A stretch of DNA of 64,000 bases from positions 1 through 64,000 of the IMG/VR virus record IMGVR_UViG_3300042519_004024. The stretch is one strand, 5' to 3'. Positions 5,817-42,871 of the stretch are shown here, piece after piece. This stretch comes from a virus. Positions within the stretch are counted from its first letter, which is position 1. The number at the start of each line of letters is the position of its first letter. The translations under genes and the position numbers were made by a program. The notes beneath the pieces are model-generated. The model did no database searches. It was not told the DNA's origin and saw nothing but the letters and a program-made list of their open reading frames with translations.

Positions 5817-5890
5817 CCCCGATTTTTCATAAAATTTTTCCAGAATTTTTTTTAATATCATAGGGACTTTTTTCTTATGAATACTTTGCA

Positions 5891-5915
5891 AAGGGGACTG
5901 TCCCCCCTTTTTACC
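5891..5915. terminator. Hairpin with T tract at edge of gene-poor region
   Basis: GGGGAC-T-GTCCCC is a perfect 13-base palindrome (5893-5905), extended by AAGG/CCTT and followed on the plus strand by TTTTT. It could terminate plus-strand transcription or seed a structured RNA. Confidence 0.45.
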
Positions 5916-5920
5916 CCTGA

Positions 5921-6043
5921 CAATGTGTCATATCGGAGGGGGGATACGGGGGAGGGGGCCCCAAATATATAGGGGGGTGGGGTATGCCAAAGTATAGAGG
6001 GGGGTATATAGTCCCCGTCATTTATTAACAGTCAATGTGTCAT
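5921..6043 (+). repeat. Direct repeat CAATGTGTCAT, two copies
   Basis: Copies at 5921-5931 and 6033-6043 flank the G-run cluster. Short, so chance is possible, but related TGTCA-type words recur nearby (6974-6980 and 7040). Confidence 0.4.
5936..5982 (+). other. G-run cluster (G-quadruplex candidate)
   Basis: Runs of 6, 5, 5, 6 and 4 G within 47 bases, against a very AT-rich background. The cluster includes the palindrome GGGGCCCC (5955-5962). It sits between the palindromic hairpin and the structured element near 6164. Confidence 0.5.
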
Positions 6044-6163
6044 GTTAATAACTCTCTAAAAATATATGGGGGAATGTTTTGTAGTCTCATATATAATCCG
6101 TACCTTTATGATTGTCAGTGGTTCAGTCCGAGACGGGTCAGGGAAACAAGTTCTTCTCTAAGA

Positions 6164-6221
6164 GGGTGGACTCCAACCTGCCTTATAGTTTACAAAAGTT
6201 GGGACGTGTTGGAGTCTACTC
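6164..6221. ncRNA. Possible structured RNA or DNA stem-loop
   Basis: GGGTGGACTCCAAC (6164-6177) pairs with GTTGGAGTCTACTC (6208-6221) over 14 positions, two of them G-U, around a 30-base loop. The flanking sequence (6115-6260) is more GC-rich than the genome and does not read like a protein. It is not a tRNA: no T-loop or CCA-type acceptor stem is seen. Confidence 0.35.
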
Positions 6222-6322
6222 GGTCCCCATCGTTAGTGACAGTTACAGAGCTAAGGTACGAAAAAGATTTGACATATACAAACTTGACTGATAAGATATT
6301 TATCATTATTAATTATCATTGT

Positions 6323-6572: not shown

Positions 6573-6892
6573 TCTTCCCCTCCGAAGAACTTATCTATAT
6601 GTGACATTGCCATATCGATGATTACTTTTCTAACCGTTGGGAAGTCATCCTCAGATAGATTGTAGTATGTGTTTAGAAATGTTAACACGTCAGTCATATC
6701 TGCATCCACTATAACAAACTGTTTTTTATTCATGATGGGTTTCTTACTCCATGACTTCTTAGCAAACTCAAAAAATACAACCCCATCTTCCACTAAGTTG
6801 TTCTTATGTTTGAATAAACATTTGATTCCCTGTTTATCTTCTACTACCTTGGGGATGAATTCTTCCTTTAAAAACTTCTCTACTCCTTCCAT
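6569..6892 (-). CDS. Hypothetical protein with possible short tag
   Basis: A 107-residue protein starting MEGVEKFLKEEFIPKVVED. The FLKEE segment resembles the type A tag end, and two overlapping TATTTAT boxes lie about 50 bases upstream, but the tag match may be chance. The body has an alpha/beta pattern with KKQFVIVDADMTDVLTF and a C-terminal helix. No known domain. It is isolated, between the G-rich stretch and a 960-base gene-free stretch. Confidence 0.65.
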   Translation of the reverse strand: MEGVEKFLKEEFIPKVVEDKQGIKCLFKHKNNLVEDGVVFFEFAKKSWSKKPIMNKKQFVIVDADMTDVLTFLNTYYNLSEDDFPTVRKVIIDMAMSHIDKFFGGED

Positions 6893-6942
6893 ATTCCTTA
6901 ATGTTGTAACGGTTTACCATTAATTATATTAATGTTTTGTTG

Positions 6943-6953
6943 ATAAATAAATA
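6943..6953 (-). promoter_or_regulatory. Two overlapping TATTTAT boxes
   Basis: ATAAATAAATA on the plus strand, about 50 bases upstream of the gene starting at 6892. Confidence 0.4.
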
Positions 6954-6964
6954 CTAAATTGGTG

Positions 6965-6982
6965 TCTGACAGTATGTCAGGG
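6965..6982. repeat. Hairpin CTGACA-GTA-TGTCAG
   Basis: Perfect 6-base inverted repeat with a 3-base loop; TGTCAG recurs near 7040. Part of the gene-free stretch 6893-7855. Confidence 0.45.
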
Positions 6983-7341
6983 GGAATGTTGATAACTTTT
7001 TTTTAAAAAAATATGTCATTTTATTTGTTTTTGTCAAAATGTCAGTCGAGCTTCACACAGGGGACAATCCTTTTTACCACTTTTCCCCACCATATTATTC
7101 CACTATTTACCACCATAATCCTTGCTGGTTATAGCTGTACCCTAAAAAATCCCCTCTGTAGGTATCTGTAGACGTATTTTTTTTACTATATACATTTTCC
7201 AGCTAATTAATGTATTAACTATGTAGTTAGCGCGGAGACGAAGTCCTTAAGTATTTCCAACGAATGGAACATGTAAATGTGACATATAATATACCCCAAC
7301 GTATAAAGGATCACTTAGATAAGATATTATAATAGTGGGAA

Positions 7342-7406
7342 AACGTGGGACAATTTAAAGGAATATGGTACATATAAAATAAACGTGTCCCTTTCTGTCC
7401 CACGTT
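7342..7406. repeat. 11-base inverted repeat AACGTGGGACA / TGTCCCACGTT
   Basis: Arms at 7342-7352 and 7396-7406, perfect, with a 43-base spacer that itself contains ACGTGTCCC. Confidence 0.55.
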
Positions 7407-7433
7407 ATATGGTTCGTTTATATAATACTTTAT

Positions 7434-7486
7434 TGTTCACCATACACTATTGTTCAGTTACACTGAACATCCCCTTTTAGTGAACA
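7434..7486. promoter_or_regulatory. Four-site symmetric array (TGTTCAC/TGTTCAG)
   Basis: TGTTCAC at 7434-7440 and TGTTCAG at 7451-7457 mirror CTGAACA at 7463-7469 and GTGAACA at 7480-7486. Both pairs share the exact dyad centre 7460, and neighbouring sites are 17 bases apart on each side. The inner pair forms an 8-base hairpin with a TAC loop. This looks like a protein-binding array such as an operator, an origin or a recombination site. Confidence 0.6.
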
Positions 7487-7588
7487 CCTCATCAGTATAG
7501 TATAAGAAACATACATATACATCTTATATAGATTATCCATATAGATAATGGGGGACAGTTTATTAAACCCACTGAATGGGGGGAATTT

Positions 7589-7616
7589 GTTTACAATAGA
7601 TAGTTTACTGTAAACT
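7589..7616. repeat. Palindrome AGTTTAC-T-GTAAACT plus extra GTTTAC
   Basis: Perfect 15-base palindrome at 7602-7616, with a further GTTTAC at 7589-7594. Confidence 0.5.
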
Positions 7617-7855
7617 TATTAATGTGTATTATATTTTAGTGTTGTATGATTATTATATTTTAATGCTAAATGTAAATACTTTTTACAATTGTAAGGTATT
7701 TTGTTAATAGTATATTACATTATGATTTAAGATATGTCCTAAGAATTACCACATAACCTTTATAGAAATGTAAGAGTATAGGATTAAGTTATGAAACGAA
7801 TGTCGTAGTGAATGAAATGAACGGTAGAGATGAGTGAGTAAATTAAATCTATACT

Positions 7856-8569
7856 CTACACATTAATGATAAACCACTCACCATTAAAATCTTCTACTAA
7901 ACAAGTGGAGTTCTCACAAAAGTCTCCTGAGTTCATATAATCTTTATCTAACTTAGGGTGATGAATATGTCCACATACCGCAACATCATATCCCTTCTGT
8001 ATTGTTAGTTGTTTTGCGTTTGTTTCAAAATCAGATACAAAGTTAATTGCTCCCTTTACTGATTGTTTAATTGTGTTTGCTAATGAATGATATGGTAGAT
8101 TAAACTTTCTTCTTATGTAGTTGTATATTGTATTTAATCTTATAACAAAATCATAACTCCATCCACCTATTACCGCTAACCATCTTACTTTCATTATAAC
8201 AAAGTCTAATACATCCCCGTGAAAACAAAAATACTTTCTTCCGTCTAATCCTTTGTGTACATACTTTCTTACAATCTCTATGTTATTCATCTTAAACGGG
8301 ACGAATGGTTTTAAAAAATCGTCGTGATTTCCTCTTATGTATATTACCTTTGTTCCCTGTTCACTTCTTTTCATAAACCTTCTAAATATCTTTGAACAAT
8401 CCTTACTCCATTTACCTTTTGATTTCATTGCCCAACCATCTATTATGTCACCATTTAGAATTAATATATCTGATTCATTCTTCTCTAAGAATTGTAGTAT
8501 CTTAGTTGTTTGTGATTGTCTTGCTCCTAAGTGTAAATCACTCATTATAATTGTTCTCCACTTTTTCAT
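7856..8569 (-). CDS. LpxH-like metallophosphoesterase
   Basis: A 237-residue protein from the ATG at 8569, whose ATGA overlaps the stop of the upstream glycosyltransferase. It has the full calcineurin-like motif set: DLHLG near residue 12, GDIIDGW, GNHDD, a histidine in CFHGD and CGHIHHP near the end. The layout matches the UDP-2,3-diacylglucosamine diphosphatase (LpxH) type, but the substrate cannot be read from sequence. With the glycosyltransferase it could modify host lipid A or cell-surface sugar. Untagged, so unlike the surrounding cargo genes. Confidence 0.85.
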   Translation of the reverse strand: MKKWRTIIMSDLHLGARQSQTTKILQFLEKNESDILILNGDIIDGWAMKSKGKWSKDCSKIFRRFMKRSEQGTKVIYIRGNHDDFLKPFVPFKMNNIEIVRKYVHKGLDGRKYFCFHGDVLDFVIMKVRWLAVIGGWSYDFVIRLNTIYNYIRRKFNLPYHSLANTIKQSVKGAINFVSDFETNAKQLTIQKGYDVAVCGHIHHPKLDKDYMNSGDFCENSTCLVEDFNGEWFIINV

Positions 8570-41720: not shown

Positions 41721-41752
41721 AAAAAAAGGTGACTCTATCAATGAGAGTCACC
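41721..41752 (-). terminator. Terminator overlapping the RNA ligase stop
   Basis: GGTGACTCT...AGAGTCACC, perfect 9-base stem, followed by T7 on the minus strand; the ligase stop codon at 41738-41740 lies in the loop. Confidence 0.85.
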
Positions 41753-42871
41753 AACATTATTTTTTTCTCCGTATATTAAGTAGTCAGGGTTTATTACTTT
41801 AGATACTTTTCTACGATCACCAGTTACAGATTTCACAACTATACCTTCATGTGGTACTTTACCCCCTTCTATGTTGTTATTAAACACAAAAGTATCTTGT
41901 ATCTCTTTAACCCATATACCTTTGTATAGTAACTCAACTTGTGGTAATTGTAGACAATCAAAGTGTACTGTTTCATTTATGTATGGTTGGTACACTCCAT
42001 CAACTTCAACATCAAATCCTGCGAATTTAACATCGGTCAAACCGTACTCATAGTTTTTTTGTATACCAGCCCCGTATATCTCGCCGTATATAACAACACC
42101 TTCATTTAAGTCAGTTGGTTCGTAAGTATCTTTTACGTGATCCCACAACTTACCTCTTATGTCGTAAGTGTTCGCCACAGTTTTCCATACATCAGTATCG
42201 TAAAACCCTTGTGAATCAGAACCCTTCTCAACGTTATGAGAACCATAAACATATTCAAATGCTGCCCATTGATTTCCAAAGAACATTTTAACACGATCCC
42301 ATATAGATAGTTTTTTCTTTCTAACTATACCGTAACGAGCATTAGTTCCATGAAGTTTACGAGTTATAACAACTTCATCTTCCTCACTGAACATATCAGG
42401 TACGTTCTTTTGGTTAGGGAACTTGTAGTAAACTTTGAAGTTAGGGTTTTGGTGGTATTTTATTTTACGTCCACCAACACTTAACTGAACGGTTTTAACT
42501 GGTGGTTCGTATTTAGTTATACCAAGTATTCCCATCATATCATCACCTTCATTAACGTTGTTCTCCAATGATTTTGGTGCCAAGTATTTGAATGGTATTA
42601 ATAAACATTCAGAGTAAACACCTCGAAGTTTAACGGTACGAACTCTTTGTCCTTTACGAAGGTAGTTAGTTACTTCCATCAAGTCAGATAAAGCTTGTGG
42701 TATTACCGCATCAGTAGTTGCAACAACAACCTTATCGTCTACTTTGTATTCGCCTTTCTTGGTTATGGCGTTCCACCCACCAACAGTAACTAACTCTATG
42801 TTATCGGCGTTTGGTATTTCAGATATAGAACCTATCTTACCAACATATGCAACACTATTTAAATTTTCCAT
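41738..42871 (-). CDS. RNA ligase with N-terminal OB-type module
   Basis: A 377-residue protein. Residues 1-125 form an OB-like module (VTVGGWNAITKKGEYKVDDK). The nucleotidyltransferase domain has motif I KLHGTN with the adenylated Lys at residue 172, an EGVVIYGEIYG motif near 258-268 and EGIVVKS near 343-349. This resembles the Rnl5/NgrRnl type, which seals nicked or broken RNA. A likely use is repair of tRNA cut by host defences. Confidence 0.88.
   Translation of the reverse strand: MENLNSVAYVGKIGSISEIPNADNIELVTVGGWNAITKKGEYKVDDKVVVATTDAVIPQALSDLMEVTNYLRKGQRVRTVKLRGVYSECLLIPFKYLAPKSLENNVNEGDDMMGILGITKYEPPVKTVQLSVGGRKIKYHQNPNFKVYYKFPNQKNVPDMFSEEDEVVITRKLHGTNARYGIVRKKKLSIWDRVKMFFGNQWAAFEYVYGSHNVEKGSDSQGFYDTDVWKTVANTYDIRGKLWDHVKDTYEPTDLNEGVVIYGEIYGAGIQKNYEYGLTDVKFAGFDVEVDGVYQPYINETVHFDCLQLPQVELLYKGIWVKEIQDTFVFNNNIEGGKVPHEGIVVKSVTGDRRKVSKVINPDYLIYGEKNNVGDSH

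Follow-up and report, generated by a model that had tools for sequence, protein, structure and literature searches.

What is a symmetric array of four short boxes doing in a non-coding part of a phage genome? The window, which is the whole 64,000-nucleotide (64-kb) stretch of viral DNA analysed here, contains such an array (Table 1). It consists of four 7-bp boxes in two pairs, where both pairs have a common dyad centre at 7460, and where the period is 17 in either arm. The first-pass annotation had described these boxes, the shared dyad and the 17-base spacing, and all are exact in the sequence. The region around them, which it called gene-free, indeed holds no plausible gene.

Table 1 Features of the array and its surroundings, in window coordinates.
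Feature	Position	Strand	Basis or remark
Box TGTTCAC	7434-7440		exact match
Box TGTTCAG	7451-7457		exact match
Box CTGAACA	7463-7469		exact match
Box GTGAACA	7480-7486		exact match
Putative orphan AbiEi_2-type operator	7434..7486	.	two inverted 24-bp arms, 5-bp centre
Left arm, 24 bp	7434..7457	+	arm weight matrix; counterpart of one 23-bp AbiEi inverted repeat
Right arm, 24 bp, inverted copy	7463..7486	-	arm weight matrix; counterpart of 23-bp repeat
Non-coding region, ~960 bp, containing the array	6893..7855	.	synteny in relatives
Phage-family block GACTGACATTTTGACAAA	7028..7045	-	47 IMG/VR loci; 389-579 nt from array in relatives
Separate palindrome CTGACAGTATGTCAG, outside the array	6966..6980	.	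sequence

The arrangement had also been called unlikely by chance. As far as geometry goes, this is too strong. The window holds a single 6-mer four-box array, the one in Table 1, and comparable arrays (any 6-mer, any spacing) turned up 4 times in 60 Markov shuffles of all 64 kb. By itself, the geometry is therefore only moderately rare. What is decisive is recurrence in viral and bacterial DNA. The degenerate pattern TGTTCAS-N10-TGTTCAS-N5-STGAACA-N10-STGAACA has exact matches in 23 IMG/VR contigs, where by our own estimate chance would provide about 1e-5. A stricter pattern finds 30 bacterial loci among 84,980 sequenced species. On an array weight matrix the window copy scores 42, and the maximum in 1.28 Mb of shuffled sequence is not above 14. 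The whole 213,924-bp record to which the window belongs has one copy, with up to 3 mismatches permitted.

The 53-bp architecture has the consensus TGTTCAC-N10-TGTTCACGnnnCGTGAACA-N10-GTGAACA. Based on 47 distinct exact arrays, this becomes TGTTCAC-[AGT]WW-N7-TGTTCACGnnnCGTGAACA-N7-WW[ACT]-GTGAACA. A relaxed three-box pattern has 93 matches, mostly with an arm spacing of 10 and a centre of 5 or 6. Two bacterial copies (L161, L189) are perfect 53-bp palindromes save for their central bases. The 30 bacterial loci are mainly from Bacteroidota or Balneolota, and also from Betaproteobacteria, Geothrix and Acetothermia. Another set of viral contigs (L099, L103, L104, L107, L134, L137, L146-L148, L152, L154) shares a distinct conserved element, TGTTCACTNTGTTCACTCATGTTCAC-N6-GTGAACA, which contains four TGTTCAC words and is not of the 17-bp architecture.

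The bacterial copies indicate what kind of site this is. No fewer than 22 of the 30 are found 0-13 bp 5' of an AbiEi_2-like start codon, or overlap it in the case of L165. The genes directly after these 22 arrays encode one family of 320-360 aa. Five members were tested against Pfam, and matched AbiEi_2 (PF09952) with E-values from 1e-19 to 1e-38. A first guess from the N-termini of the downstream genes, a TetR-like operator, was dropped on this Pfam result. The next gene is usually an AbiEii-like (PF08843) nucleotidyltransferase, whose similarity passes the cut-off in L171 and L170 and narrowly misses it in L164 and L178. By predicted function, the bacterial unit runs operator, antitoxin/autorepressor, toxin, which is a type IV toxin-antitoxin operon.

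The association can also be approached from the gene side, by a sample collected blind to the array. This consists of the 18 intact PF09952 loci from 395 Bacteroidota-class genomes (the class of G047). An array-like site, defined as a score of at least 14.5 where shuffled sequence reaches 13.4, is present just 5' of the gene at 17 of the 18. Two of these barely exceed the shuffled maximum (L296, L310), and L308 is the only locus without a site. The window array agrees, box by box, with this four-box, two-arm architecture upstream of AbiEi_2 genes. Together, the 22 of 30 arrays at AbiEi_2 starts and the 17 of 18 array-blind loci make it very likely that the phage array is, by type, an AbiEi_2 autoregulatory operator.

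It might of course be read by something else in the phage. A regulator encoded by the phage, unrelated to AbiEi_2, could recognise the same array by coincidence. Selection does act on the array in phages without AbiEi_2, and many genes in the window have no known family. Such a coincidence is improbable however, because box, arm and centre spacing agree with bacterial AbiEi_2 operators across phyla. Furthermore, about 15 dissimilar clusters of phage copies, grouped by shared flanks, have the site, and one phage regulator is unlikely to link them.

At the protein level, a model of AbiEi_2 compared to PDB folds gave no match at E<=0.001, and a PDB sequence search found none either. The best, weak, fold matches are to winged-helix regulators and EndoMS-like nucleases. 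The AbiEi_2 proteins of family A1, for example L164:2547-3515, have an extra N-terminal domain before the winged helix. Judging by the model and its weak EndoMS matches, this domain looks like a PD-(D/E)XK nuclease fold.

Several bacterial arrays have defence genes beside them: type I restriction (L161), DrmD-like (L162) and HmaA/HmaB-like (L168) genes, while BrxHI- and PglXI-like genes adjoin L172 and L166. Six bacterial arrays are in genomes without a detected AbiEi_2 (L161, L162, L168, L169, L177, L181), and three of these six adjoin restriction or defence genes. Another protein could therefore use the site, which counts against the AbiEi reading.

In the window, the array is not directly 5' of any abiEi gene. 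PF09952 is absent from its own 213,924-bp record, which is why the array is here called an orphan, and also from 35 other array-bearing viral records of up to 336 kb. AbiEii (PF08843) is absent from 28 array-bearing viral records, including its own, and the full-length A1 family profile has no match in these 28. A local profile search, in which the positive control worked, similarly found no AbiEi_2-family match in array-bearing phages. A complete AbiE type IV toxin-antitoxin system is an abiEi and abiEii pair, and the phage has neither family. That array-bearing phages lack AbiE genes is a strong trend and not proof, as records may be incomplete.

The phage copies differ from the bacterial ones in another respect. 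The Bacteroidota -7 promoter element, TAnnTTTG, was searched for within 12 bp of the arrays. It overlaps 27 of 49 bacterial copies, where shuffled sequence leads one to expect 11%, and this is as expected because an autorepressor covers its own promoter. At phage arrays it is found in 6 of 51 (expectation 10%), although phages may use promoters that this search misses. The difference between bacteria and phages has a Fisher P of 5e-6. Neither strand of 6890-7860 has the element. The phage copy therefore retains the boxes but is without the promoter, which was either lost or never present. The host of the window phage is presumably a member of the Bacteroidota.

Boxes without a promoter, at positions that vary between phages, favour a putative site for binding a host protein. 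The best explanation, with a probability of roughly 45 to 50%, is that the phage array is an orphan AbiEi_2-type operator which acts as a DNA decoy or capture site for the AbiEi of the host. In a host with an AbiEi_2/AbiEii locus, AbiEi protomers would occupy both 24-bp arms of the phage array. Phage replication would raise the number of such sites, and AbiEi would be drawn off its own operon and linked defence promoters. One possible gain is that AbiEi would leave any other defence promoters under its control, given that orphan arrays occur near restriction-modification genes. Another is that antitoxin production would be forced. Two points count against a decoy. AbiEi withdrawal might derepress antitoxin and toxin alike, leaving no clear benefit for the phage. 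In addition, the position of the array is conserved within each phage family, which a pure decoy does not need.

This conserved position also fits the main rival, in which the array is a cis-regulatory operator, where host AbiEi_2 serves as sensor or repressor of nearby phage genes, such as tRNA operons or early genes downstream of 6892. Phage genes would then track the AbiE state of the host. In known cases such nucleotidyltransferase toxins act on tRNAs; related MenT toxins extend tRNA 3' ends (PMC10435456), and phage tRNAs have been proposed as decoys or replacements (PMC7725324). This makes the location of the other phage copies relevant. Several are inside tRNA clusters, a few bases away from the tRNA genes on either side (L065-L069, L071, L073, L075-L077, L079, L085). 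Going by genes named from their translations, others separate divergent blocks of genes in phages that look crAss-like (L091, L101), or are 3' of a capsid-like gene (L082) or just 5' of a primase-like gene (L080, L086).

Given that AbiEii relatives act on tRNA, and given the proposal on phage tRNAs, the arrays in tRNA clusters suit the cis-regulatory reading, and so do the copies in divergent intergenic regions or immediately 5' of a gene. The window phage does not. Its 25 tRNA genes are away from the array, at record positions 70389-82201 (70-82 kb), and the next gene start is more than 500 bp from the array. Where copies separate tRNAs of one and the same operon, they are also not in promoter positions, and the -7 element of the host is not enriched at phage copies. 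Control of nearby genes is thus unlikely, if less so than any other rival. The window also has an RNA ligase (PHROG 968) at 41738-42871 on the minus strand. With the 25 tRNA genes, this fits a phage that invests in tRNA supply and repair, which suits pressure from tRNA-targeting host toxins. On the minus strand of 1-20657, many unrelated proteins start alike (MNLQEHIRKVLREE.. or MKxIIRLTESDLTRIVKRxxxE..). This shared motif recalls the capsid-targeting leader peptides of T4-like internal head proteins.

Whether the site matters to the phage at all can be gauged from its conservation. The non-coding region has the same position in related phages (L072, L097 and relatives collected independently of the array), with sequence that has otherwise diverged. 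These independent relatives were collected with the GACTGACATTTTGACAAA block as bait, and the array is present in 11 of the 47 loci, at the distance given in Table 1. Over ten distinct related-phage copies, identity is 97% in the 6-bp cores, 54% in the arm spacers and 35% in the flanks. The first-pass annotation had proposed looking for the array in related phages, and in these roughly ten relatives it is conserved. Among 73 loci fetched by an IHF-like neighbour gene, 9 have a near-perfect array and it is otherwise absent, with no decayed forms. Relatives fetched by the phosphoesterase gene of the window have no array within 5 kb on either side. Isolated phages yielded no useful related match, only generic tRNA or RNA-ligase matches, and no laboratory phage with the array. 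The preserved cores and the pattern of presence and absence point to an array that is kept under strong selection in some phage lineages and is missing from others.

The same data bear on the idea that the array is a relic or hitch-hiker, either left behind when a toxin-antitoxin locus was lost or a small palindrome that moves about, and in both cases without function in the phage. In crAss-like-looking relatives the entire unit has been cleanly inserted or lost, as is seen from the clean empty site in an alignment: '..gctttac ATAT[array]TAATGTG' versus '..gctttac ATAATGTG'. A TA target-site duplication at this empty site was dropped from consideration, as it is not seen at other loci. A relic is nevertheless quite improbable, because the cores are kept while spacers and flanks decay. 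The crAss-like set is also without decayed intermediates, and no remnants of toxin-antitoxin genes were detected in array-bearing phages.

Some relatives without the array (L323, L324, L335, L349, L351, L354) have other palindromes near the same place, upstream of GACTGACATTTTGACAAA. These are ATGTATAG..CTATACAT, AACTTACC-N4-GGTAAGTT and GCAAATATACGGTA-N12-TACCGTATATTTGC, and they could be exchangeable sites. The idea that they are operators of other host regulators found no support: AACTTACC-N4-GGTAAGTT matched 0 of the 395 Bacteroidota-class genomes.

The first-pass annotation had suggested a tetrameric binding site, a replication origin or a resolution site. The comparisons above strongly support a predicted site for a multi-subunit protein. 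An origin, a resolution site or a structured RNA element is very improbable, even though the site is symmetric, non-coding, and embedded in 211 nt whose folding, on either strand, is better than that of shuffled sequence. At AbiEi_2 genes, identical sites serve as operators that overlap the promoter, and the position differs from phage to phage. For an origin, GC skew would matter as well, and at coarse resolution it shows no switch at 7.4 kb. For an RNA, there is no Rfam family at the gathering threshold, and a lax threshold gives weak, implausible matches only (mir-342, E 0.11; CRISPR-DR17, E 3.3). The outer boxes vary asymmetrically (e.g. L097, L334) and not by compensatory change.

Adjoining the array, in 7342-7406, the 11-bp sequences AACGTGGGACA and TGTCCCACGTT form a perfect inverted repeat around a 43-nt loop, and as RNA either strand of this stretch folds well. 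A second non-coding stretch, at 5890-6300 between minus-strand genes, contains G-runs, TGACANNNTGTCA-like palindromes and hairpins, and is possibly an RNA gene.

Taken more widely, it is a tentative and not quite even proposition that diverse phages carry orphan AbiE-type operators as DNA-only anti-defence or host-sensing elements, gained and lost as near-consensus units of 50-60 bp. If host AbiEi does bind the array, phages would manipulate or read a host defence regulator by 53 bp of DNA, with no protein involved. Orphan operator sites escape gene-based searches for anti-defence genes. The analysis also yields a precise, testable AbiEi_2 operator consensus for Bacteroidota and beyond, and links AbiE systems, whose relatives modify tRNAs, to phage tRNA clusters.

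The kind of operator is not new, since AbiE autoregulation is already known. As far as the literature was searched, two things are new: a consensus for the AbiEi_2 operator, and the fact that many phages carry it as an orphan. No report was found there of a phage with the operator, but not the genes, of a host toxin-antitoxin regulator.

Related arrangements exist. The operators of BrxR, a WYL protein of defence islands, are inverted repeats with a 5-bp spacer, and have second sites within the island (PMC9122601). The spacer is alike, as is a regulator that adjoins BREX and other defence genes. The BrxR protein family is unrelated however, and its repeats are 11-bp. The M. tuberculosis Rv2827c operator has two pairs of 23-bp inverted repeats that overlap the promoter (PMC7319586). 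There too an AbiEi-type antitoxin is found on long inverted repeats, but these number four, with 13-bp gaps per pair, where the array has one pair of 24-bp arms.

Closest is S. agalactiae PabiEi. As summarised in PMC7319586, which cites Hampton 2018, AbiEi is autoregulatory, and its monomers bind a pair of 23-bp inverted repeats separated by 3 bp. Compared to that summary, the bacterial arrays similarly have two long inverted repeats near an AbiEi-type start codon, in an autoregulatory position. The likeness is one of architecture. Arms of 24 bp compare with 23 there, and a centre of 5-6 bp with one of 3; in addition, each arm is a direct repeat of a 7-bp box, and the phage copy is without toxin-antitoxin genes. 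A pair of inverted 24-bp arms with 5 bp between them agrees with the two-repeat scheme as summarised there, and by this analogy the left arm is probably the site of one protomer.
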